This document shows, piece after piece, positions 43,780 through 55,357 of a stretch of 64,000 nucleotides of DNA. The stretch is taken from assembly GCA_015056795.1 (NCBI GenBank), contig SVFO01000006.1, positions 11,658 through 75,657 on the forward strand, in the 5' to 3' direction. This DNA is from Lachnospiraceae bacterium (lineage in GTDB: Bacteria > Bacillota > Clostridia > Lachnospirales > Lachnospiraceae). Below the pieces are notes generated by a model, which was not told where the DNA came from, did not search any database, and saw only the letters and a list, made by a program, of their open reading frames with translations. Position numbers and translations under genes: made by a program. Every line of letters begins with the position of its first letter. Within the stretch, counting starts at the first letter, position 1.

Positions 43780-44817
43780 ATGGACGGTTTGTTTCGGAAG
43801 ATAACGGAAGAGTGTAGGAAGACAGGGTTTCTGGAGACGGTGCTGGAAAAGGCGCATTATGCGCCTGAGGACAGGGAGCTTTTGTGGTCCGTGCTGGAGC
43901 AGGTGCTTCAATGCATGGAGGGGGAAGCCTGCTGGAGTGCGAGGGCGATAGGCGATAAGGAGCCTGACGGGAGAGAGAAGGCGATAGGCAACAAGGAGCC
44001 TGACGGGAACGGGAAGACGATAGGTGACAGGGAGCCTGACGGGAGAGAGAAGGCGATAGGCGACAGGGAGCCTGACGGGAGAGAGAAGGCGATAGGCGCT
44101 AAAGAGCTTGGTGCTGGGAAAGCGAGTTGTGACGAGAAAGAGGTTGGCGCTGAAAATACTGATTGGAGCGTTATGGAGAATGCCGATGGAAATACTGATT
44201 TGAGTGTAAAGACGGTTGGCACAGGGGATGCTGGCGTACGAGCGGTTGTCATGACGCTGGGAGCAGGCGTGGACCAGCTGCAGGAGGATATGCTCGCCGC
44301 GGGGAAGCTCACGGAAGCCTACATGGTTGAGGTTCTGGGGAGTGAAATCCTGCTGTTGGCATACTCGGCGTTGAATGCCTGGGTGAAGGAACATACGGAT
44401 TTTGTGGTCAAAAGATATTACTTCCTTGGCGTGGGGGAGTATGTGACAATTTATGAAGCAGATCAGGACGGTATGGGTGGGGGGCATGAAGCCGAGGATC
44501 ATAAGACTGCAAGAACCCATACGGAGACGGCTGCTAGGATTTCGTTGGAGCTTGCAACGCTTCCTGACATGCTGGAAAGGAGCGGGCTGCCCGTGACCTG
44601 TACGGAGGGCTATTGTATGATGCCCAAAAAGAGCGTTGCCTTTTATGCGGAGCTGACAAAGGATAGGACGGTCACCTGCGAGGGCATTTGCATGGGGTGT
44701 GGACGCAAGGATTGCCCCAACCGAATGGATGCCTTGGAGCGCACCCGCGGCAACCGAACCCTCGACCGCCCCCTGACCTACGGCTACGCCAGGATCCTTG
44801 GACTGCGGGAATCCTAA
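43780..44817 (+). CDS. Cysteine-rich protein resembling the cobalamin-dependent methionine synthase activation domain
   Basis: 345 residues from ATG 43780, five bases after GGAGGG. A short helical start is followed by tandem 12-residue repeats (AIGDREPDGREK and variants, residues 56-115), then an acidic linker. From about residue 150 the pattern VMTLGAGVDQLQEDMLAAGK, EVLGSEILLLAYSALNAWV and the closing CEGICMGCGRKDCPNRM resembles the MetH reactivation domain of Clostridia, in which cysteines near the end are common. It may help maintain a corrinoid protein; this is inference. It follows the two-HTH gene by 19 bases, so they are probably cotranscribed. Confidence 0.65.
   Translation: MDGLFRKITEECRKTGFLETVLEKAHYAPEDRELLWSVLEQVLQCMEGEACWSARAIGDKEPDGREKAIGNKEPDGNGKTIGDREPDGREKAIGDREPDGREKAIGAKELGAGKASCDEKEVGAENTDWSVMENADGNTDLSVKTVGTGDAGVRAVVMTLGAGVDQLQEDMLAAGKLTEAYMVEVLGSEILLLAYSALNAWVKEHTDFVVKRYYFLGVGEYVTIYEADQDGMGGGHEAEDHKTARTHTETAARISLELATLPDMLERSGLPVTCTEGYCMMPKKSVAFYAELTKDRTVTCEGICMGCGRKDCPNRMDALERTRGNRTLDRPLTYGYARILGLRES
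43945..44124 (+). repeat. 36-bp in-frame tandem repeats
   Basis: Four near-identical 36-base units (43945-43980, 43981-44016, 44017-44052, 44053-44088) and a degenerate fifth encode AIGDKEPDGREK-like dodecapeptides inside the MetH-activation-like gene. Unit length is a multiple of three, so copy-number change keeps the frame. Confidence 0.92.
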
Positions 44818-44849: not shown

Positions 44850-45299
44850 ATGGAAAAAATGGTGTTTGTGAGGTGCAATAAGAAAATGGTGTTGACGTTA
44901 TCCGCTCAGGCTTTGCTTTGGATATGGTTTTTGGGGTGCACTACAACATGGCGTTTTGGAAAAGTATTGCTTGTTGAAGGAATGGGAATTAAGAGTGCAG
45001 AGTTCACTATGCTTTGTTTGTACAGCATAGGGCTGGTCGCACATTACTCTTTTCAGCCTAAAGGCAAATGGATTTTGTTCGTCATCCTTGCACTTTGGTT
45101 TGTTATTCAGTTTTTTTGCCACTGGTATTTTACAATCTTTGGTGCCTCCGAAGGAAAACTGAAAGGATACAATGAATGTTTCAAGGGTACTGCAAGGCTA
45201 ATTCCAATGAGTGAAAATCGTCTTATACCCGATTTATATCATATTGTTCTTCACATATTGATATTGTTGAATGGTGTTCTTTGCTTAATTACATGTTGA
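44850..45299 (+). CDS. Small membrane protein of unknown function
   Basis: A 149-residue protein with four hydrophobic segments (LTLSAQALLWIWFLGC, TMLCLYSIGLVAHY, WILFVILALWFVIQFF and LYHIVLHILILLNGVLCLI) and a polar loop EGKLKGYNECFKGTARLIPM. There is no strong Shine-Dalgarno sequence before the ATG. Its flanks, CATTTGTGTGG before the ATG and the hairpin array after the stop, recur at 54740-55223 without the gene. It may thus travel with that repeat cassette. No family is recognised. Confidence 0.6.
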   Translation: MEKMVFVRCNKKMVLTLSAQALLWIWFLGCTTTWRFGKVLLVEGMGIKSAEFTMLCLYSIGLVAHYSFQPKGKWILFVILALWFVIQFFCHWYFTIFGASEGKLKGYNECFKGTARLIPMSENRLIPDLYHIVLHILILLNGVLCLITC

Positions 45300-45325
45300 G
45301 GGACAGCGAAAAACAAACGCACAAA

Positions 45326-45815
45326 TCGCTGTTTGTTGAGCAAGTTTGTTTCAAAAATCGCTACTTGTAGATCCGTTTATATTTGACAACCCGGGGTTGC
45401 AAGAAGAAAGGCAACTTAAATAAGGTGCAGGGTGGCGCTGGGTTGCCTTTTGAGGAAGAATCAAGAGGAAAGGCAACATAAACAAGGTGTGGGGCGGTGC
45501 TGGGTTGCCTTTTGAGGAAGAATCAAGAGGAAAGGCAACATAAATAAGACGCGGGGCGCCGCTGGGTTGCCTTTTGAGGAAGAATCAAGAGGAAAGGCAA
45601 CATAAATAAGGCGCAGGGTGGCGCTGGGTTGCCTTTTGAGGAAGAATCAAGAGGAAAGGCAACATAAATAAGGCGCAGGGTGGCGCTGGGTTGCCTTTTG
45701 AGGAAGAATCAAGAGGAAAGGCAACATAAACAAGGTGTGGGGCGGCGACAAGTTGCCTTTTGACAAAGTATGGATCGAAATCGGAAAAAAATCGGCAACT
45801 TCGGGTTTGTTTCTG
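45326..45815. repeat. Hairpin repeat cassette, copy 1 (six 62-bp units)
   Basis: From 45407 to 45760 a 62-base unit repeats six times. Each has AAAGGCAAC and GTTGCCTTT as pairing ends of a 44-base hairpin, joined by the linker TGAGGAAGAATCAAGAGG. GTTGCC begins at 45442, 45504, 45566, 45628, 45690 and 45752. The last unit differs (GCGACAAGTTGCC). A conserved left flank (TCGCTGTTTGTTGAGCAAG from 45326) and right flank (GACAAAGTATGGATCGAAA) are shared with copy 2 at 54804-55223. It is intergenic, between the small membrane protein and AraC genes. Confidence 0.95.
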
Positions 45816-46050
45816 CGGTGCCCATTCGCATGCAGCTACGCCGCATTGCTCATGACGCGCTAGCGCGCTATGTGTCTGTCTGCATAAATGCGCTTGCGTG
45901 AGCATGCTCCCACCGCGCATTATGCGACATCCACGCACCGCTTGTAGAAACGCGCAACTTCCAGTTTATGGTTGGAAACGCTATTTGCAAAAAGGGAGAG
46001 ACAAGAAGCTACTGATCTTATACTATTCATAATGTACTAGACTTGCAGTA
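45816..46050. other. Intergenic spacer after hairpin array
   Basis: No gene is seen. A GC-rich stretch with the palindrome GCGCTAGCGC (about 45861-45870) is followed by AACTTCCAGTTTATGGTTGGAAA, which resembles a segment at 55253-55276 after copy 2 of the array. The cassette homology therefore extends beyond the array with an insertion here. Confidence 0.45.
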
Positions 46051-46128
46051 AACTCGAGGAGAGGGTTGTAGGGGTCTTTCTAGGTCAAAAGATTACTAGA
46101 AAGACCCCTACAACCCCCTCCCCGAGTT
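46051..46128. terminator. Long inverted repeat at the end of the AraC gene
   Basis: Two 33-base arms (46051-46083 and 46096-46128) pair at 31 positions, including 21 uninterrupted pairs, around a 12-base loop. It begins 12 bases beyond the AraC stop (minus strand). It would stop transcription arriving from either side, though it has no strong T-tract. Its length is unusual for a plain terminator. Confidence 0.75.
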
Positions 46129-46139
46129 CTTCCATATCC

Positions 46140-47057
46140 TTAGAATGGCGGGTAAAGCAGCTGTCCGCTTTCGGTTACGCTGCCGCCGAGGGTCAGATGG
46201 CGAGAGCTTTCTTCCTTGGGGAGCGAGAGCTTTTCGGCGTGCTCCCTGCGGTAGCGGCTGGGAGAAGAGCAGAGGAACTTGCGGAACTGACGGCAGAAAT
46301 GCTCCACGTTGTTGTAACCGCAATCCTCCGCAATTTCACGGACGGATTTCGAGGTGGAGACCAGCTGGTCCTGTGCATTTTTGAGGCGCTGTAGGATGAC
46401 GTCCTCCATGCAAGAGGACCCGAACATGGTTTTATAAAGTGCCTGAAGATAACCGCTGCTCAGGTGGAGCTCGCGGGCCATGGCATCAACGCTCCAAGGA
46501 AGCTCAGGATGGTTGTAGATGCGCCTATGGAGATCATACATTTCCTGCGTATGCGGGTTGCTTGCAGGGCGGGAACAGCTTTCCGCCAGCTTAAAAAAGA
46601 GAGCCTTTAATAGATGGGAGAGCACCTCGCGGCTCTCCGAATTTCCCAAAGTGGATTCCCAAGTCATCAGCTTGAACAGATCGTGACAGTACTGTGCGTC
46701 ACTGACCTGGAAGGGCTGATTTTTTAATGGGAGCTGTTCTGCAAAGGGCTCGTCGCAGCGGAAGCGGATCCAGTCGTTGACATAGGACTCCTCGCAGGCA
46801 CGATAAAGCACATGCGACCCAGGCGTGTATAGGATCACCGTTCCGGCGGGATAGCGGTGGAAGGACGCGCTGAGGCGCTCCTCCATGGACATGGGGGCAT
46901 GGGCTTCCCTGCCGAGCACCTCGTCGCCAGCCGTCAGGTAGATTTCCACGGGGGTTGAGGTCAGGAGCAATAGATAGGAATTATGGGCGTTCGGCAGGCC
47001 GTAGATGAAGCCGGAGGGATGGGTGCCGTCATATCCGATAAATTCAATTTCTAACAT
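46140..47057 (-). CDS. AraC-family transcriptional regulator
   Basis: A 305-residue protein. Residues 1-160 form a cupin-type sensing domain (YLTAGDEVLGREAHAPMSME, GTVILYTPGSHVLYR). Residues 195-290 form the AraC/XylS double HTH: PWSVDAMARELHLSSGYLQA, then VREIAEDCGYNNVEHFCRQF and RKFLCSSPSRYRREHA. It is transcribed away from the GH43 gene and is probably the activator of the glycoside hydrolase locus, responding to a sugar released from the polymer. The repeats at 47129-47230 between the two genes are candidate binding sites. Confidence 0.92.
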   Translation of the reverse strand: MLEIEFIGYDGTHPSGFIYGLPNAHNSYLLLLTSTPVEIYLTAGDEVLGREAHAPMSMEERLSASFHRYPAGTVILYTPGSHVLYRACEESYVNDWIRFRCDEPFAEQLPLKNQPFQVSDAQYCHDLFKLMTWESTLGNSESREVLSHLLKALFFKLAESCSRPASNPHTQEMYDLHRRIYNHPELPWSVDAMARELHLSSGYLQALYKTMFGSSCMEDVILQRLKNAQDQLVSTSKSVREIAEDCGYNNVEHFCRQFRKFLCSSPSRYRREHAEKLSLPKEESSRHLTLGGSVTESGQLLYPPF

Positions 47058-47128
47058 GCCGTTCTCCTTAAGAAAATTCAGTGATTTTTCACTTTATGTT
47101 CTACATTGTAACGATTTCTGTTTCATGA

Positions 47129-47230
47129 CATCATGCCACAGTAAAAGGCAGGAGATGCTTCTTTACATCATGGCATCATGCCACGGTAAAAGGCAGGAAA
47201 TGCTTCTTTGCGTCATGGCATCATGCCACG
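47129..47230. repeat. 45-bp direct repeats between AraC and GH43 genes
   Basis: CATCATGCCAC begins at 47129, 47174 and 47219, exactly 45 bases apart. The intervening GTAAAAGGCAGGA-ATGCTTCTTT is conserved, giving two full units and part of a third. The spacing is near four helical turns. They lie between the divergent regulator and its likely target, so they are probable regulator-binding sites. In one frame they would encode 15-residue repeats, which I consider accidental. Confidence 0.8.
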
Positions 47231-47252
47231 AAAAAAAGCCTCAAAATGGTTT

Positions 47253-47281
47253 TTGACTTTACATCATTGCGTCAATAATCT
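47253..47281 (+). promoter_or_regulatory. Candidate promoter of the GH43 gene
   Basis: TTGACT (47253-47258), 17 bases, TAATCT (47276-47281), just downstream of the 45-bp repeats. The remaining leader to 47521 is AT-rich with no gene and no obvious structure. An activator bound at the repeats could reach this promoter. Confidence 0.5.
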
Positions 47282-47521
47282 TGAAAATGAGATAATGTGC
47301 TTTCTAGTCAGTAATGATATAGAGTTCACCCAAATGCTTAAAAAATAAAGTGCACCAGGAATTCCAGCTAGAAAGGCGGATATCTTACAATATGAGAATA
47401 TATCAATTTTTTAAAAGTATAAATCATTGGAAAGAGGGCGTCAAGAAGGTACACTAAGAAATAGAATGAGAAAGTCTGTGAAATTGTATCATTTTGGATA
47501 AAGAGACAGGAGGAAATGGCA

Positions 47522-48919
47522 ATGAAGAAATTAGGATTCAATCCGTATCTGCCCTCATGGGAGTATATTCCCGACGGGGAGCCCTATGTATTTGACGGCA
47601 GAGTGTATGTTTACGGCTCTCACGACAAGTACAATGGGCATGTATTTTGCCTCGGGGATTATGTGACTTGGTCTGCTCCCGTGGACGATCTTGGAAATTG
47701 GAGATATGAGGGCGTGATCTATGAGAAGACGCAGGATCCCTTGAACAAGGAAGGCAAGATGTGCCTGTATGCACCTGACATGACGATCGGTCCCGATGGC
47801 AGATACTATCTTTACTATGCACTGGACAAGGTGCCTATCATTTCCGTTGCAGTTTGCGACAGCCCTGCTGGAAAGTTTGAATTCTATGGCTATGTTCATT
47901 ATGCAGATGGCACGAAGCTTGGAGAGCGCGCAGGAGATGAGCCTCAGTTCGATCCCGGCGTCATCACCGAGAATGGCAAGACCTATCTCTACACGGGCTT
48001 CTGCGGCCGCGGCGACAAGTCCAGAACCGGTTCCAGGCTGCAGGTGCTTGCTGAGGACATGCTGACCATCATTGAGGAGCCGAAGACCGTGGTTCCCGGC
48101 GTGGAATACCAGGAGGGAACGGGCTTCGAGGGACATGCATTCTTTGAGGCATCCTCCATCCGCAAGGTTGGCGACAAATATTATTTCATCTATTCCTCCA
48201 CCCCCATGCATGAGCTTTGCTATGCGACGGCGGATGATCCGAGGGGACCGTTCACCTATGGCGGCGTGATTGTCAGCAACTGTGACATTGGCATCACGAA
48301 GGACAAGCCTGCCGAGCTTCCCCTGGCCTATGGCGGAAACAATCATGGCAGCATTATTGAAATCAATGGACAGTGGTACATCTTCTATCACCGTCAGACG
48401 AACGGTACCTGGTACAGCCGTCAGGTTTGTGCTGAGAAGATCGAGATTCTTCCTGACGGTCGAATCCCTCAGGTGGAGCTGACGAGCTGCGGCTTGAACG
48501 GCGGACCGCTTCCCGGAAAGGGAACCTATGGCGGATATCTGGCTTGTAACCTCTTTACGGACAAGCCCATGCCGTACGTCGGCGGGGATGCCTTCCCGAA
48601 GATCATGCAGGATGGCCGCGACGGAGACGAGGAGCCCGGCTATATCGGAAACATCAAGAATAATGCGACTGCCGGCTTCAAGTATTTCGATTTCCGGGGC
48701 GTGAAGGCCATTACTCTTACGGTTCGCGGCTATGCGAACGGAGAATTTGAGGTGCGCACCAGCCGTGAGGGCGAGGTTCTGGCAAGAATCCATGTCGAAT
48801 ACACCAATGTCTGGGAGGATTATCGGAGCGAGATCAACATCCCTGATGGCGTTGGCGCGATCTACCTGACCTACAAGGGCGGCGGAATTGCAAGCCTTCT
48901 GCAATTTACCTTGGAGTAA
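47522..48919 (+). CDS. GH43-family glycoside hydrolase (arabinofuranosidase/xylosidase type), intracellular
   Basis: 465 residues from ATG 47522, eight bases after AGGAGG. It has no signal peptide. The five-bladed propeller catalytic residues can be placed: base D18 in YIPDGEPYVFDG, pKa-setting D86 in CLYAPDMTIGPDG and acid E209 in GHAFFEASSIRK. The domain ends near residue 330. The C-terminal 130 residues (FKYFDFRGVKAITLTVRGYA) form a beta-sandwich of the CBM6-like kind. It would remove arabinose or xylose from short plant-polysaccharide oligomers inside the cell. It is the first gene of the hydrolase locus opposite AraC. Confidence 0.9.
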   Translation: MKKLGFNPYLPSWEYIPDGEPYVFDGRVYVYGSHDKYNGHVFCLGDYVTWSAPVDDLGNWRYEGVIYEKTQDPLNKEGKMCLYAPDMTIGPDGRYYLYYALDKVPIISVAVCDSPAGKFEFYGYVHYADGTKLGERAGDEPQFDPGVITENGKTYLYTGFCGRGDKSRTGSRLQVLAEDMLTIIEEPKTVVPGVEYQEGTGFEGHAFFEASSIRKVGDKYYFIYSSTPMHELCYATADDPRGPFTYGGVIVSNCDIGITKDKPAELPLAYGGNNHGSIIEINGQWYIFYHRQTNGTWYSRQVCAEKIEILPDGRIPQVELTSCGLNGGPLPGKGTYGGYLACNLFTDKPMPYVGGDAFPKIMQDGRDGDEEPGYIGNIKNNATAGFKYFDFRGVKAITLTVRGYANGEFEVRTSREGEVLARIHVEYTNVWEDYRSEINIPDGVGAIYLTYKGGGIASLLQFTLE

Positions 48920-48936
48920 GATCACAAGGAATAAGG

Positions 48937-49045
48937 CTTCAGAAAAGGAACCAAGTAAGGCATCAGGAAAAGAATTAAGAAAGACTTCATGAAAAAATAA
49001 AGTAAGAATTCAGGAAAAGCATTAGGCAATACTTCAAGTAAGAGG
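48937..49045. repeat. Degenerate 24-bp tandem repeat
   Basis: Units beginning CTTCAGAAAAGG, CATCAGGAAAAG, CTTCATGAAAAA, ATTCAGGAAAAG and CTTCAAG follow at 24-, 24-, 23- and 24-base steps between the two GH43 genes. Homology between units is partial. No function is evident. Confidence 0.55.
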
Positions 49046-49148
49046 GCAGAGCCTTAGAAATGTGAGATTCCTTATGGGATGAAAGGCGAAACCTGAGAAA
49101 TGGTGCCTTGGGGGGCGGCATGATCAATAGAACGGGAAGTGTGAGAAC

Positions 49149-50828
49149 ATGAAACATCAGGAATGGAAACGATTGCTTTTAGGACTGAGCGCGGCAGCGC
49201 TTCTATTGGCGTCGGGATGCAGCGAAGCCTCTGGCAACGGAACAACGCCGAGCGGAAGCGGCAATACGGGGGCTTCCGTAACGGAAAGCGACGTAAATCC
49301 GTCTGGCAATGAACAGGACGGCACGGGCGAAGCTGGACAAAGTAACGAAAATAATCAAAATCAGGAGGAAAGCAGTATGGATTATGCGGAAATTTTTAAG
49401 GGTGTGACAATTGCGAAGAGCTACAAGGGAGTGATGAACAACAACCCCATCATTGAACAGCACTATGGTGCGGATCCCTTTGCACTGGTATATGGCGATG
49501 AGGTGTATTTTTACATGACGGCGGATGCCTATGAGTATGATGCAGCTGGTGCCATCAAGGAGAATACCTATGGCAAGATTCGTAGCCTTTACGTGGTATC
49601 CACGAAGGATATGATAAACTTTACGGATCACGGTGAGATTACGATTGCAGGCGCAGGCGGCGCAACCAAGTGGGCGCACAATTCCTGGGCTCCCGCAGCA
49701 GCTTGGAAGGAGATTGACGGCAAGCCGAAGTTCTTCCTGTACTTCGCAGACAATGGCGGCGGCATTGGCGTGGTAACCTCTGACAGCCCTGTTGGTCCCT
49801 TCGTGGACGAGCTCGGACATGGTTTGATCCGCAGGGACATGGAGAACTGCGGCAATGTAGAATGGCTCTTTGACCCCGCAGTTTTGGTGGATGATGACGG
49901 CAAGGCATATATCTACTTTGGCGGCGGCGTTCCCCAGGGCAAGGCATCCCATCCCATGACGGCGAGATGCGCACAGCTCGGTGACGACATGATGAGCCTC
50001 GTGGACGTGCCTACGACCATCGACGCACCTTACCTGTTCGAGGATTCCGGCATCCATAAATATGGCGACACCTATTATTATACCTATTGCTCCAACTTCA
50101 GCGTGGACAAGGAAGGTACCGCTGAGTATGGCATGGAGAACGGCGAAATCTGCGTGATGACCAGCAAGAGCCCCTTGGGACCCTTCACCTTCTCGGAGAG
50201 AATCCTGAAGAACCCTGGCTTCTACTTTGGTGTTGGCGGCAACAACCATCATGCCATCTTCAAGTTCAAGGATCAGTGGTACATCACCTACCACACCCGC
50301 ATGCTGGAGACCGCACAGGAGATCGTTAAGGGCTATCGTTCCACCAGCATTGACGAGTTCAACTTCAATGAGGACGGCACCATCGGCAACATCAAGATGA
50401 CCAAGGCTGACCGCAAGCAGGTTGGCACGCTGAATCCTTATGAGACCATCAACGGCGCTACCTTCGCAGTAATGGGCGGCGTGGACACCGCTCCCGCTGA
50501 TGAAACCAGCAAGAAATACGGCTGCGGCAACCTTCTCCTTACCGCCATCGACACTGGCGACTTCGTAAAGCTCCAGGGCGTGGACTTCGGTGACAAGGGT
50601 GCCACCACCATCAAGGCAACCGTAAAGACCAATGGCAAGGATGGCGTCATCCGCGTTACCACCAAATTCCCGAACGGCGAGGTTGCAGGCTACCTGCCCA
50701 TCAAGGCTGATTCCGCAGACACCACCACCTTCGAAGCTAAGCTCGACGCACCCATCACCGGCCTGCAGGACGTCTTCTTCACCTTCAGCGGCGAAGGCTA
50801 CGAAATCATCGACTGGATTTTCGAGTAA
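49149..50828 (+). CDS. GH43-family glycoside hydrolase, secreted lipoprotein
   Basis: A 559-residue protein with a lipoprotein signal (LLLGLSAAALLLASGC, anchor C24), then a Ser/Gly/Asn-rich spacer of about 55 residues that lifts the enzyme off the membrane. The GH43 propeller begins near D109 (YGADPFALVYGDEVYFYMTA) and contains WAPAAAWKEIDGKPKFFLYF and a later acidic strand FEDSGIHKYGDTYYYTY that should carry the acid. The C-terminal beta-sandwich (LLTAIDTGDFVKLQGVDFG) resembles a CBM6-like module. It would act on arabinoxylan, arabinan or a similar polymer outside the cell. C-ending codons dominate the second half, suggesting strong expression. Confidence 0.9.
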   Translation: MKHQEWKRLLLGLSAAALLLASGCSEASGNGTTPSGSGNTGASVTESDVNPSGNEQDGTGEAGQSNENNQNQEESSMDYAEIFKGVTIAKSYKGVMNNNPIIEQHYGADPFALVYGDEVYFYMTADAYEYDAAGAIKENTYGKIRSLYVVSTKDMINFTDHGEITIAGAGGATKWAHNSWAPAAAWKEIDGKPKFFLYFADNGGGIGVVTSDSPVGPFVDELGHGLIRRDMENCGNVEWLFDPAVLVDDDGKAYIYFGGGVPQGKASHPMTARCAQLGDDMMSLVDVPTTIDAPYLFEDSGIHKYGDTYYYTYCSNFSVDKEGTAEYGMENGEICVMTSKSPLGPFTFSERILKNPGFYFGVGGNNHHAIFKFKDQWYITYHTRMLETAQEIVKGYRSTSIDEFNFNEDGTIGNIKMTKADRKQVGTLNPYETINGATFAVMGGVDTAPADETSKKYGCGNLLLTAIDTGDFVKLQGVDFGDKGATTIKATVKTNGKDGVIRVTTKFPNGEVAGYLPIKADSADTTTFEAKLDAPITGLQDVFFTFSGEGYEIIDWIFE

Positions 50829-50997
50829 ATGACCTTTCTTGAGACAATACATGATCATATGTTCCCTGTGCAATCTTGCTCCATAAATGGTGCAGCATCA
50901 CCTGTACAGAAACAGATGAATAAACATGTCTCAAAAAACAATCGACAAACAAAATTCATTAAACATAACATAAAGAATTTAAATAACTCGAGTGTGA
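50829..50997. other. Spacer after the GH43 lipoprotein gene
   Basis: An AT-rich stretch without a supported gene or clear terminator. Frames seen here have no recognisable features. Confidence 0.4.
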
Positions 50998-51259
50998 TCG
51001 GGTGGAATCCTCTTGAAACAATTAGCCGGCAGCACTTAGCGAACCAAGAGGCTCAAAAGACAGGAGCGAGGCTTATAGACTCGCGAGTGCCTTTGCCTGA
51101 GCGTCGCAGGTGAGCTTAGTGCAGTCCGAGCCGTTTCAAGAGGATCCACCCGAAACGCGAGGGCAGTTAAGTGCAGTCCGAGCCGTTTCAAGAGGATCCA
51201 CCCGAAACGCGAGGGCAGTTAAGTGCAGTCCGAGACGTTTCAAGAGGATCCACCCGACC
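50998..51259. repeat. 52-bp direct repeats with an inverted copy, upstream of the GH39-GH43 gene
   Basis: GCAGTCCGAG begins at 51121, 51173 and 51225, giving a 52-base period with GTTTCAAGAGGATCCACCCG conserved in each unit. At about 50998-51041 the same motif is present in reverse orientation (CGGGTGGAATCCTCTTGAAAC). The inverted copy can pair with any of the direct copies to form long alternative hairpins, the last one ending about 40 bases before the gene start. Confidence 0.88.
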
Positions 51260-51300
51260 CACACGAGGTCTTTCAAGACATTTCAATGGGAGGTTACAAA

Positions 51301-54300
51301 ATGGATATACGCGTAAAGGTCGGTGACCGCGCAAGCTTCCACAACCAAGTGGACTACTGCATCGGTACCGGAAGAATGGGGCTTGCGCTCCACAAAGAAT
51401 ACCATGATCAGCTGAAAATGGCCCAGGATTACATCGGCTTCCAGCACATCCGCGGCCATGGACTCTTCTGCGATGACATCGGCATCTACCAGCAGCACAG
51501 AGAGAACCCCTGGGACAAAAACAGCCCCTACGAGGTTGAGTACAACTTCACCTACCTTGACAGAGTCATGGACGACTACCGCTCCATGGGCCTAAAGCCC
51601 TTCCTCGAGCTGGGCTTCATGCCCTACGGAATGGCGAGCGGCACCCAGACCATCTTCTACTGGAAGGGCAACACCACCCCGCCCAAGGACTACGAGGACT
51701 GGAAGAAAATGGTACAGGCACTCCTGCGTCACCTGATCGAAAGATATGGTGAGGATGCCTACACCTTCCCCATCGAGGTTTGGAACGAGCCCAACCTCCC
51801 TGGCTTCTGGTACAAGGCCGACATGGACGAGTACTTCAAGCTCTTCAAGGAAAGCTTCTATGCCATCAAGGAGGTTAGCCCGAGATTCCGCGTGGGCGGC
51901 CCTGCCGTTTGTGGCGGTACCGACGAGAAGTGGATCAGCGCGTTCATGGAGTTTTGCCACATGAACAAGATTCCCGTGGACTTCGTGACCAGACACCACT
52001 ACACCACCGAGCTGCCTGAGAGAGATGGTCACTATGGCTATGCCGAGCTGATGAATGAAGAGGATGGCTTCGCAAACCTGAAGACCACCCGCGACATCAT
52101 TGACAAATATGACGAATACAGAGGACTCCAGATCCACATTACGGAGTACAACACCTCCTACATTCCGAACTGCCCGCTGCATGACACGAACCAGAATGCG
52201 GCATATATTGCAAAGCAGCTCTCCAGATTGGGAGATGGCAACGAATCCTACTCCTACTGGACCTTTGGCGACGTGTTCGAGGAGCAGGGCATTCCCTTTA
52301 CGCCCTTCCATGGCGGCTTTGGCCTGATCGCCAACGGCTGCATCCCGAAGCCGACCTTCTGGACCTTCGTATTCTTTAAGAATTTGAAGCGTGCGCCGGG
52401 AGAATGCATCTTCAAAAATGACAATGCTGTCATTATGAAGATGGAGGATGGTTCCTTTAGAGGTGTTGTTTGGAATGATACAAGGAATCGCGCAGGAAAG
52501 GATTTCACCATGAACCTCTCTCTCGAGACGGAGGCAGGAGAGTACTGCATCCTCACGAAGCGCGTTGACGAGGATACCTGCAATCCCTTAAAGCTTTGGC
52601 ATGATATCGGCGAGCCTGCAAATCCTGATCAGGCGCAGATCGACCTAATTAAGGAGGCGGCACAGCCCTTCGTCAGAACCCTCCGCAGAAATGTGTCAAA
52701 GGGGACGGTTCTTTCTGACACGTTTTCAAACGGCGAAGCTCAGGGCGCTCTGGAGTTCTCCGTGGAGCTGAAGGAGAATGCCGTGGTTTACTTTGAGGCG
52801 AAGAAGGCTCCCGTGAAGTCCGATCGCGGCTATCGTTATGAGCACGTGACCCAGCAGGGCGGCATTAATCCTTTGACGAAGATGGATTATCCTGATCCTG
52901 ACATTCTCCGCGTGGATGATACCTACTACATGGTAAGCACCACGATGTACTTCATGCCTGGCTGCGAGATTCTGAGATCCTATGATCTCGTGAACTGGGA
53001 GCATGCGACCTATGTTTATGACAGATTGGATTCCACGCCAGGTCAGAAGCTGGAGGGCGAGGAGAACATCTATGGTCAGGGCATGTGGGCGGCAAGCATC
53101 CGCTACCATGAGGGCACATTCTATGTGATCTTCGTGGCAAATGACACGCACAAGACCTATCTTTACAAGGCAAAGAGCATTGACGGACCTTGGGAGAAGA
53201 GCGAGATTCAGGGCTTCTTCCATGACAATTCCCTGCTCTTTGACGATGACGGCCGCGTATATATCATTTCTGGCAACCGCACGATCCACCTGACTGAGTT
53301 AAAGCCTGATCTTTCTGGCCCGAAGGAGGGTGGACTTGACAGGATTGTCATAAAGGATCGCGATGATGCGTACCTTGGCTATGAGGGCGCACATATGTAT
53401 AAGATCAATGGAAAGTACTATCTCTTCTTCATCCACATGCCCAGAGAAACTGGACGCAGGACGGAGGCTTGTTTCATGAGTGATTCCCTCGAGGGTGAGT
53501 TCACGGGCGGCGACGTCATGGGGGATGACAGAGGCTATTGCGGCAGCGGCTGCGCGCAGGGTGGCATTGTTGACACGCCTGACGGAAAGTGGTATTCCAT
53601 TGTCTTCCAGGACAGCGGTGCCGTAGGCCGACTTCCTATTTTGATCCCTGTTCGCTTCAATGAAGAGACGGGCATGCCGGAGTTTGGCTTCCGCGGAAAG
53701 GCACCCCTGATCTTTAAGACGCCTGCAGCAAAGCCTGGCTATACATATGAGCCACTGGTTGGCAGTGATGACTTTAAGGATTGCGATGCGGGCGATGACA
53801 AGGAATATGCAAGAAAGCATGCAAGCTTTGGCTTCAAGAGTCGTTGGCAGTTTAATCACGAGCCTGATCTGACACTCGTGTCAAGAGATGAAAAGGCAGG
53901 CACCGTGACCGTGACGACGGATAAGCTCTGCAAGAACGTGGTTCAGGCAAAGAATGTTCTGACGCAGAGAACAACCTTCCCTGGAAGTGCTGCGGAGATC
54001 ACCGTGGACGGCTCCGCGCTGAAGGAAGGCGATTATGCAGGATTGGTGCTCTTAGAGAGCGCATATGCCTTTGCGGCGCTGACCAGAAGAAATGGCGAGC
54101 TTTGGATCGTGATGAAGAACCGCAAGGCGCCCGACGGAATGTGGGGTGAGCGTCATGATACGGAAGCTGGCGATGAGTGGGCGGCAGTGAAGGTGACGCC
54201 TTCCATGCTTGAAGCGGGCGAAGACGGCTCCAAGACTCGGATAACGCTTCGCGCAGAGACGGACTTCGCGTATATGAAGGACGTGGCGAACCTCTTCTAT

Positions 54301-54480
54301 GTGGAGCAAGGCGTAAAGAAGCCTCTTGGACCGACCTCCAAGCTGTGCTTTAAGCTGGATCACTTTACGGGTGTTCGCTTTGGACTCTTTGTCTATGCGA
54401 CGAAGGAGATCGGCGGCAGCGCAAGCTTTACGAACTTCCGCTATGAGACCAAGGTGGACGGCGCGTGGGAGAAGTGCTAG
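51301..54480 (+). CDS. Bifunctional GH39-GH43 glycoside hydrolase fusion
   Basis: 1059 residues from ATG 51301, seven bases after GGGAGG; the upstream in-frame extension reads through the repeats. There is no signal peptide. Residues 1 to about 480 are a GH39 beta-xylosidase-type barrel with acid/base E163 in EVWNEPNLPGFW and nucleophile E282 in HITEYNTSY. From about 520 a GH43 propeller starts (MDYPDPDILRVDDTYYMVST), and the end (from about 800, SFGFKSRWQFNHEPDLTLVS) is the beta-sandwich common in GH43 xylosidases. Both activities could trim xylan or xyloglucan oligomers inside the cell. Codon use changes near 52,380, within the GH39 end. Confidence 0.92.
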   Translation: MDIRVKVGDRASFHNQVDYCIGTGRMGLALHKEYHDQLKMAQDYIGFQHIRGHGLFCDDIGIYQQHRENPWDKNSPYEVEYNFTYLDRVMDDYRSMGLKPFLELGFMPYGMASGTQTIFYWKGNTTPPKDYEDWKKMVQALLRHLIERYGEDAYTFPIEVWNEPNLPGFWYKADMDEYFKLFKESFYAIKEVSPRFRVGGPAVCGGTDEKWISAFMEFCHMNKIPVDFVTRHHYTTELPERDGHYGYAELMNEEDGFANLKTTRDIIDKYDEYRGLQIHITEYNTSYIPNCPLHDTNQNAAYIAKQLSRLGDGNESYSYWTFGDVFEEQGIPFTPFHGGFGLIANGCIPKPTFWTFVFFKNLKRAPGECIFKNDNAVIMKMEDGSFRGVVWNDTRNRAGKDFTMNLSLETEAGEYCILTKRVDEDTCNPLKLWHDIGEPANPDQAQIDLIKEAAQPFVRTLRRNVSKGTVLSDTFSNGEAQGALEFSVELKENAVVYFEAKKAPVKSDRGYRYEHVTQQGGINPLTKMDYPDPDILRVDDTYYMVSTTMYFMPGCEILRSYDLVNWEHATYVYDRLDSTPGQKLEGEENIYGQGMWAASIRYHEGTFYVIFVANDTHKTYLYKAKSIDGPWEKSEIQGFFHDNSLLFDDDGRVYIISGNRTIHLTELKPDLSGPKEGGLDRIVIKDRDDAYLGYEGAHMYKINGKYYLFFIHMPRETGRRTEACFMSDSLEGEFTGGDVMGDDRGYCGSGCAQGGIVDTPDGKWYSIVFQDSGAVGRLPILIPVRFNEETGMPEFGFRGKAPLIFKTPAAKPGYTYEPLVGSDDFKDCDAGDDKEYARKHASFGFKSRWQFNHEPDLTLVSRDEKAGTVTVTTDKLCKNVVQAKNVLTQRTTFPGSAAEITVDGSALKEGDYAGLVLLESAYAFAALTRRNGELWIVMKNRKAPDGMWGERHDTEAGDEWAAVKVTPSMLEAGEDGSKTRITLRAETDFAYMKDVANLFYVEQGVKKPLGPTSKLCFKLDHFTGVRFGLFVYATKEIGGSASFTNFRYETKVDGAWEKC

Positions 54481-54803
54481 GAAGTATGACCAAGTAATGA
54501 AATCCATTTTATTTGACGCAGTTTGCAAATTTTTGACAAAAATGAGATGTTACAGGCTGAAAAAGAAGAACTATTTCATTAAGAAGAAAGTTTAGTTTTA
54601 AATGCGAGTTCTATGACAAGATAAAGGGGATGCCGGGCGTATGGGGGAAGCGCTTCTGCCATGTGCCCGGTATTCCGCTGTCATCACGCGAGGCGGACAA
54701 AGCAAGCTATCGCGAAGCGAATATAATTATTTACTTTTTACATTTGTGTGGTTGTAATGGATAATAAAAATCGCTGTTTGTAGGGGTGATTCTGTTCGCA
54801 AAC
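54481..54803. other. Spacer before hairpin array copy 2
   Basis: No gene is supported. A stem of CCGGGC (54633-54638) and GCCCGG (54665-54670) enclosing the palindrome GAAGCGCTTC could mark the end of the GH39-GH43 transcript, without a T-tract. At 54740-54760 the sequence ACATTTGTGTGGTTGTAATGG resembles the start region of the small membrane gene at 44830-44853, but the gene itself is absent. Confidence 0.5.
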
Positions 54804-55223
54804 TCGCTGTTTGTTGAGCAAGTTTGTTTCAAAAATCGCTGCTTGTAGATCCGTTTATATTTGACAACCCGGGGTTGCAAGAAGAAAGGCAACTTAAATA
54901 AGGTGCAGGGTGGCGCTGGGTTGCCTTTTGAGGAAGAATCAAGAAGAAAGGCAACATAAACAAGACGCGGGGCGGCGCTGGGTTGCCTTTTGAGGAAGAA
55001 TCAAGAAGAAAGGCAACATAAACAAGACGCGGGGCGGCGCTGGGTTGCCTTTTGAGGAAGAATCAAGAAGAAAGGCAACATAAATAAGGCGCAGGGTGGC
55101 GCTGGGTTGCCTTTTGAGGAAGAATCAAGAGGAAAGGCAACATAAACAAGATGTGGGGCGGCGACAAGTTGCCTTTTGACAAAGTATGGATCGAAATCGG
55201 AAAAAATCGGCAACTTCGGGTTT
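54804..55223. repeat. Hairpin repeat cassette, copy 2 (five 62-bp units)
   Basis: The same 62-base hairpin unit as at 45407-45760 repeats five times from 54885 to 55176, with GTTGCC starting at 54920, 54982, 55044, 55106 and 55168. Both flanks match copy 1 closely. The terminal unit is again the divergent GCGACAAGTTGCC form. Copy number differs from copy 1 by one unit, indicating slippage or recombination. It separates the GH39-GH43 gene from the GH95 gene. Confidence 0.95.
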
Positions 55224-55357
55224 GTTGATTGGAAACAGGGAAAGAGATTGGGTACTTCCAGTTTGTCGATTGGAAGTAGAAAAAGGAGTAGATATCTTCC
55301 AATTTACAAATTAGAAACACATTTGTAAAAGGGTAGTAAAATGAAGGAGATCAAGGG

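Follow-up and report, generated by a model that had tools for sequence, protein, structure and literature searches.

Tandem hairpin arrays around a Lachnospiraceae hydrolase locus as probable copies of a modular non-coding repeat interspersed in the genome

Two arrays of tandem hairpins, referred to as A and B, enclose a hydrolase locus in the window, i.e. the whole stretch of 64,000 nucleotides of Lachnospiraceae DNA which was analysed. Both of them probably, albeit by no means certainly, belong to a modular non-coding repeat which is interspersed in Lachnospiraceae genomes and works like a bacterial interspersed mosaic element (BIME). This assessment is based on the observation of many copies per genome, of different sites being occupied in two species, of mosaics of modules, of ends shared by the copies and of conserved hairpins. 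The genome carrying the window (3.96 Mb, 67 contigs) is labelled G000, and G130 designates the second genome in which the cassette is found, a Lachnospiraceae MAG of a related species of the same genus.

Results

Anatomy of the two cassettes

Both arrays are composed of 62-bp units in exact register. Those of array A (n = 6) start at positions 45407, 45469, 45531, 45593, 45655 and 45717, and those of array B (n = 5) at 54885, 54947, 55009, 55071 and 55133, with Tandem Repeats Finder assigning scores of 574 and 485, respectively. The unit counts of a preliminary description of this DNA (six and five) are right, the arrays extending over 45407-45778 and 54885-55194, and sequence comparison also bears out the matching flanks and the same divergent last unit which it had ascribed to both arrays: the sequence common to A and B comprises about 85 bp ahead of unit 1, unit 1 itself and, at the other end, the divergent last unit together with about 33 bp 3' of it. 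Within array A the unit at 45593 is identical to that at 45655. A protein-coding reading of the units was rejected on the reasoning that 62 is no multiple of three.

The coordinates of all features are compiled in Table 1. The head of cassette A agrees with the contig end of C31 in 98.7% of positions over 77 bp; the DNA located 5' of the cassette head is not alike from copy to copy. No cap follows the tail of cassette B. The genes between the arrays are followed by one for a GH95 protein. A scan for tandem hairpins with a common arm returned eight arrays, five of them belonging to the 62-bp family, in a 523-kb set of G000 sequence into which loci with known arrays had been selected; a shuffled control (one shuffle) yielded no array.

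Table 1. Features of the two cassettes and of the DNA between them (positions in the window).
Feature	Position	Strand	Description
Head, cassette A	45323..45406	+	Two AAATCGCTGYTTGTWGA-type motifs at a spacing of 32 bp, followed by opening hairpin
Opening hairpin, cassette A	to 45415	+	Short degenerate GGTTGC-AAGAAGAAAG-GCAAC which starts the array; -3.5 kcal/mol
Array A	45407..45778	+	Six 62-bp units, the last one divergent
Array A hairpins	first at 45442-45477	+	Five conserved 36-nt GTTGCCTTT-18 nt-AAAGGCAAC with variable 26-nt spacers between
Tail, cassette A	45779..45814	+	Junction motif CAACTTCGGGTTTGTTTC from 45796
Cap	45815..45968	+	GC-rich covarying module adjoining cassette A; on the - strand its relatives show similarity to Rfam Clostridiales-1
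Intervening genes	46140..54480		AraC-type regulator (-), two GH43, GH39-GH43 fusion; context, outside the element
Head, cassette B	54768..54884	+	Three AAATCG-type motifs at a spacing of 32-33 bp, followed by degenerate opening hairpin
Array B	54885..55194	+	Five 62-bp units
Tail, cassette B	55195..55228	+	Exact junction motif CAACTTCGGGTTTGTTGA at 55211-55228

Predicted fold of the arrays

Each arm is able to pair in two ways, namely with a partner in its own unit, enclosing a 26-nt loop, or with one in the next unit, enclosing an 18-nt loop. Folded in isolation, the within-unit hairpin reaches -12.0 and -18.3 kcal/mol compared to -11.8 kcal/mol for the between-unit hairpin. When the array is folded as a whole, GTTGCCTTT prefers, in the ensemble, AAAGGCAAC of the next unit to the partner within its own unit. 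For array A the mean pair probabilities amount to 0.31-0.92 between units versus 0.00-0.13 within units, and for array B to 0.74-0.92 at three junctions versus 0.00-0.07, the between-unit value at the last junction of array B being just 0.02. The within-unit pairing proposed in the preliminary description is thus not the preferred one in the ensemble, although in isolation it is at least as stable as the between-unit hairpin.

The variation among units is unevenly distributed. Over 29 junctions the minor-base fraction is 1.7% in the 18-nt stretch versus 16.2% in the 26-nt stretch, and among 27 distinct units (from 40) the arm columns vary by 1.6% and the inner 26 nt by 15.5%. Compensatory changes were not found among 14 units folded together, so that the case for the array hairpin is made by conservation and by the predicted fold rather than by covariation. 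The repeat is described, following the modelled ensemble, as a predicted 36-nt hairpin plus 26-nt spacers with degenerate hairpins bounding both ends. We would like to add an observation made by eye with respect to integron attC arrays, whose core is GTTRRRY: there are no genes between the units, and the GTTGCCT present here misfits this core.

Copies, mosaics and junction motif

In G000, three arrays are complete, with 6, 5 and 4 units, respectively, and a further seven contig ends, located on six contigs, fall inside an array (three 5' and four 3' fragments); taking the three complete arrays together with the four contig ends which hold a 3' end, at least seven arrays are present. Three further contig ends of this genome (C59, C55 and C9) fall in what appear to be other hairpin arrays. 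In G130 at least nine arrays are present, eight being counted by their intact 3' ends and the ninth being degenerate. Under filters that drop weak matches, R1, the covariance model built for the unit, detects it in 2 of 138 genus genomes, namely G000 and G130, and a DNA search of 101 genus genomes gives a match in G000 only. In a pattern scan of one genome per species (84,980 species, a set which may omit the window's own genome) the unit turns up solely in a single MAG, uncultured Lachnospiraceae SRR10912535_bin.72, on seven of its contigs; this MAG appears to be G130. No such arrays were recognised in the parts of the literature which our searches brought up. To the preliminary description the two arrays had looked like duplicates of a single cassette, and it had proposed to count its copies in the genome and in relatives and to look for conserved ends; the counts given above agree with such a duplication, and head and tail turn out to be common to the copies.

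At four loci of G130 (L103, L104, L109 and L142) several array types are, on inspection by eye, strung together, in L103 and L104 along with the cap. Within these mosaics, arrays of differing stems are set apart by a motif which, as judged by eye, is close to CAACTTCGGGTTTGTTGA; the loop sequences are not the same among array types. Allowing for up to three mismatches, this motif is present 12 times in G000 and 9 times in G130, compared to 3 and 0 times, respectively, for the reversed motif used as control. According to our own reading, 9 of the 12 occurrences in G000 coincide with a cassette, a cap or another hairpin array.

Among 30 neighbouring proteins compared with Pfam, a scan which leaves out the neighbours of several contig-end copies of G130, there is no transposase, recombinase or cas family; an associated transposase, for which the preliminary description had suggested a search, was hence not encountered in this set. 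By eye, neither target-site duplications nor terminal inverted repeats were recognised in the copies, the flanks of which are too diverged for exact edges. With regard to carriage by phages or plasmids, BLAST gave no match for the array or for one G130 mosaic, and no carrier among viral contigs matches the exact patterns of array and cap.

Comparison of sites and sequence identity between G000 and G130

G130 carries the region of the window at 68-86% identity with unchanged gene order. Between the aligned gene ends site A measures 46 bp in G130 versus 1339 bp in G000, where it also holds a 149-aa ORF, and site B measures 104 bp versus 863 bp. At L106 of G130 an array plus cap lies directly ahead of a gene, while in G000 the gap between the homologue of this gene and its upstream neighbour is about 30 bp; this comparison covers one flank, the G130 contig ending within the array. 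The G000 homologues of some L104 genes show no unit or cap within 11.5 kb, with a differing gene order there. On the basis of these alignments, the three compared sites are unshared between G000 and G130. Because they lie in diverged intergenic DNA, insertion and loss are indistinguishable, and the edges of the element are defined solely by comparison of its copies. Since the cassette is found at several places, and at different sites in each species, it seems to spread from site to site and may also pass from one species to another. The mobile non-coding element which the preliminary description had listed among the conceivable roles gains support from the multiple copies in two genomes and from the unshared sites.

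The same description had linked the arrays, as direct repeats, to a possible deletion or amplification of the AraC-GH43-GH43-GH39/43 block. This link is not supported: G130 has the same gene order without either array, and no deletion or amplification is seen. As the block is intact in G130 without the arrays, the arrays do not define it. The notion that the arrays delimit a hydrolase block which is mobile was rejected for this reason, and the hydrolase gene block is a bystander.

For the comparison of identities, one length floor of 120 bp was applied to cassette stretches and other segments alike. Seven of the eight G130 stretches of cassette or cap which reach this length are 92.2-98.2% identical to G000 and one degenerate copy is 87.0% identical, while the other segments shared by the two genomes (n = 27) show a median of 78.4% and a maximum of 90.6%, the latter for a 223-bp gene segment. 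Each of the seven high-identity stretches therefore exceeds each of the 27 other segments, which points to recent sharing; matching to the best of several copies pushes the cassette identity upward. If the length floor is omitted, 10 of 12 cassette or cap stretches reach at least 92.2%, the remaining two being 89.5 and 87.0% identical. Gene conversion or selection could also hold the copies alike.

The cap module

By means of BLAST the cap is detected in 13 of 138 genus genomes, in many of them in multiple copies, some of the matches being short and weak. Inspection by eye reveals tandem hairpins 5' of many of the cap copies viewed, their sequence varying with the genome. A strict detector, which requires exact 7-base arms and passes over visibly imperfect arrays (G098, G122, G002), reports an array on the upstream side for 10 of 52 cap copies, with controls yielding 1/54 downstream, 0/39 far upstream and 0/52 in shuffled sequence. 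All ten are located within the genus (10/23 copies, possibly one too low as row L223 was scored in the wrong orientation), where they are distributed over 5 of 11 genomes, the table omitting two of the 13 cap-bearing ones (G006 and G018); four of the ten belong to the 62-bp family. Outside the genus the detector finds an array upstream in none of 29 cap copies.

An alignment of 18 cap copies supports 29 base pairs, 12 of which show changes on both sides. Paired cells amount to 93.0% compared to 83.2 ± 0.9% in shuffled alignments, and the covariation score is 0.287 compared to 0.116 (reached in 0 of 500 shuffles; slid controls ≤0.092), the structure having been predicted from the very alignment that was scored and related sequences being able to beat such shuffles without structure. 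The number of further pair types (20 versus 21.2 in shuffles) shows no excess, and a single cap copy is no more stable than its own shuffles (z = -0.30). A covariance model of the cap (R2) matches 143 of 397 genomes of the family and 126 of 334 genera at a threshold of E ≤0.001, the E-values being rough.

The Rfam family Clostridiales-1 (RF01699), derived from Clostridiales and human gut sequences, is tabled in its 2010 description as probably an RNA and probably not cis-regulatory (PMC2864571). Among the cap relatives, 9 of 17 loci cover model positions 1-166 of this family (4/7 at E ≤0.1 and 5/10 at E ≤1), all of them on the strand opposite to R2; the best score is 42.5 bits compared to a gathering score of 48. 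The remaining 8 of the 17 loci gave no match, including L103 of G130 (E ≤1), whose cap is near-identical to that of the window. The window cap itself obtains 15.1 bits (E = 0.46) in a scan of 221 bases and is not listed in one of 1201 bases at E ≤10. None of 20 family loci, some of which had been scanned before, passes the gathering threshold, nor does the window; we regard the cap as distantly related to Clostridiales-1 rather than as a member. The array gave no gathering match in Rfam; weak miRNA and snoRNA matches were taken as chance.

Discussion

A cassette consists of head motifs, a hairpin array and a tail motif, with or without the covarying cap. Copies of it would move as units into intergenic DNA, probably via folded single strands or via recombination at the common junction motif, with the mobilising enzyme presumably encoded elsewhere. 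Slippage or unequal exchange would then shift the number of units, and copies may pass between species. An effect on neighbouring genes, if any, is taken as secondary.

The proposed spread of the cassette has to be weighed against an old vertical inheritance with lineage-specific losses, in which gene conversion would keep the copies alike. This is unlikely. It would conform to our searches having brought up the unit in just two species, both belonging to the same genus, and to the indistinguishability of insertion and loss at the compared sites, but all three of these sites are unshared, and within-genome conversion alone would not give a cross-species identity which, in seven of eight stretches, lies above that of all 27 other segments. 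Quite unlikely is a function of the tandem hairpins as terminators or 3'-UTR stabilisers which end or protect upstream transcripts, even though both arrays are located between genes, the same two gaps in G130 contain, by eye, compact hairpins followed by T runs, and, by our own reading of the 11 copies whose upstream neighbour is readable, that gene is co-oriented with the array in 8. In the other three of these copies it is divergent; moreover, a local scan for terminators (loops of 3-8 only) finds no + strand site in either array region, which lends no support to the termination role considered in the preliminary description, and one - strand site which is within shuffle expectation. No T run follows the preferred hairpin, and termination leaves both the unshared sites and the cross-species identity unexplained. 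The conserved purine-rich loop TGAGGAAGAATCAAGAGG, a promoter-like site at 54737-54765 ahead of array B and the resemblance of cap relatives to Clostridiales-1, probably an RNA in the judgement of its authors (PMC2864571), would suit several copies of a small-RNA gene or of a protein-binding RNA sponge with purine-rich GAGGA loops. This assignment nevertheless seems decidedly improbable: promoter-like sites are no more frequent than expected from shuffles, GGA arises easily in a purine-rich loop, the loops differ among array types and the compared sites are unshared between G000 and G130.

A further alternative regards the hairpins as REPs moved by the Y1 transposase of the genome. One PF01797 (Y1) gene is indeed present in each of G000 and G130, and both match the NCBIfam REP-associated tyrosine transposase (E = 4.9e-13 and 1.5e-13), both below the cut-off. 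In G130 a cap copy lies about 3 kb from this gene, and the repeat flanking the gene is also encountered next to a different hairpin array (L104, about 1455-1500) and within a mosaic (C2, near 26 kb). This flanking repeat is, however, of another sequence (GGGGACGGTTCTTTTTGAC in G000 and GGGGACGGGGTT in G130), the Y1 flanks show no match to the 62-bp array, head, tail or cap, and the known REP tags GTAG and GGAG are absent from the feet of the hairpins. We consider the REP-RAYT assignment very unlikely; since the flanking repeat is found beside one other array and inside one mosaic of G130, the Y1 transposase may still have a role in the movement of modules. CRISPR repeats are of like length and possess GTT...AAC ends, which the array resembles, and a 36-nt repeat with palindromic ends plus a 26-nt spacer adds up to the 62 bp of the unit. 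That the arrays constitute a CRISPR or a relic thereof is nonetheless hardly credible, as it is already contradicted by the similarity of the spacers, which are mutually homologous (minor-base fraction of 16.2%) and in some cases identical; the same array is, in addition, present at many loci, and no cas family occurs among the 30 neighbouring proteins scanned.

Returning to the interspersed modular repeat, a far-reaching extension, which we put forward as tentative and on balance doubtful, would be a family-wide mobile system without genes of its own, in which a conserved, covarying, Clostridiales-1-related module and species-specific hairpin arrays are joined at a shared exchange-site motif, CAACTTCNGGTTTGTYGA, with an enzyme of the host copying the modules from site to site and from one species to another. 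If this modular system is mobile, Clostridiales-1 would belong to a mobile repeat rather than being a small-RNA gene. Provided that the preferred reading is right, a repeat class which breaks the G000 assembly (at seven contig ends) gains a recognisable anatomy, and its cap becomes traceable with one covariance model (143/397 family genomes). It would likewise suggest that an Rfam entry regarded as a probable, not cis-regulatory RNA is related to a mobile repeat. The comparison of G000 with G130 offers defined occupied and empty sites for studying the spread of a gene-less repeat.

Comparison with known systems

BIMEs are characterised as extragenic, multi-copy palindromic units which occur in clusters and as mosaics of motifs (PMC3733652), and the present repeat shares these features with BIME/REP. 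In contrast to them, its units are arranged head-to-tail in one orientation and possess 9-bp arms and long loops. The numbers of at least seven and at least nine loci per genome lie below those of typical REP families, and the cassette combines the lack of a flanking cognate RAYT with a covarying module of about 150 nt. With Clostridiales-1 (RF01699) it may be connected by the full-model matches at 9 of 17 loci of cap relatives and by the weak one of the window cap in one of two scans; the cap described here stays below gathering and forms a repeated module within mosaics. CRISPR arrays resemble it in the 36-nt repeat with palindromic ends and the 26-nt intervals; unlike in these, the intervals are homologous, the scanned neighbours are free of cas and the array recurs at many loci. 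MITEs and REPINs are small, non-coding, non-autonomous mobile elements in intergenic DNA, and the cassette is likewise small, non-coding, mobile-looking and intergenic. It differs from them by an internal tandem array whose length varies and by the lack of recognised terminal inverted repeats or target duplication. As an extragenic mosaic repeat the element is of an ordinary kind; what sets it apart is its anatomy and how widely its cap occurs.

Open reading frame and tandem repeats in the window

The 149-aa ORF neighbouring array A, the more upstream of the two tandem arrays of 62-bp hairpin units, matches no entry in Pfam or NCBIfam, both of which were searched. Comparison of the window's own genome with G130, a related Lachnospiraceae MAG, reveals that the equivalent of the array A site in the latter is devoid of this ORF. 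Further tandem repeats are present in the window (see the table), and parts of the region harbouring the 52-bp units are also found at locus L165.

Further repeats and an ORF of the window
Feature	Position	Location
CAGCA x16	1-82	extreme start of window
Tandem repeat, 36-bp unit, 4.8 copies	43926-44098	within overlapping ORFs
149-aa ORF	44850-45299	next to array A
Tandem repeat, 45-bp unit	47123-47230	outside main ORFs
Tandem repeat, 52-bp unit	51108-51263	outside main ORFs

Repeats flanking the Y1 transposase genes

In the window's own genome the flanks of the Y1 transposase gene carry the repeat GGGGACGGTTCTTT-TGACAC, one copy of which is also found within the GH39/43 ORF of the window (52690-52727). 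Several copies related to this repeat are present on contig C10 of G130. The repeat flanking the Y1 transposase gene of G130 itself directly adjoins a TGCAGTCA hairpin array (locus L104, about 1455-1500).

Second array type and neighbours of the cap

A second type of array, CCAGGCAAGC...GCTTGCCTG, accompanied by a shortened version of the cap, the GC-rich covarying module of about 150 nt adjoining array A, is observed in L221 of G018, another genome of the same genus, as well as in L157 and L144 of the window's own genome. Array and shortened cap look near-identical between these two genomes. In several other genera (L255, L256, L257 and L263) the cap, judged from sequence, seems to adjoin the 3' end of a putative ribosomal protein S9 gene.
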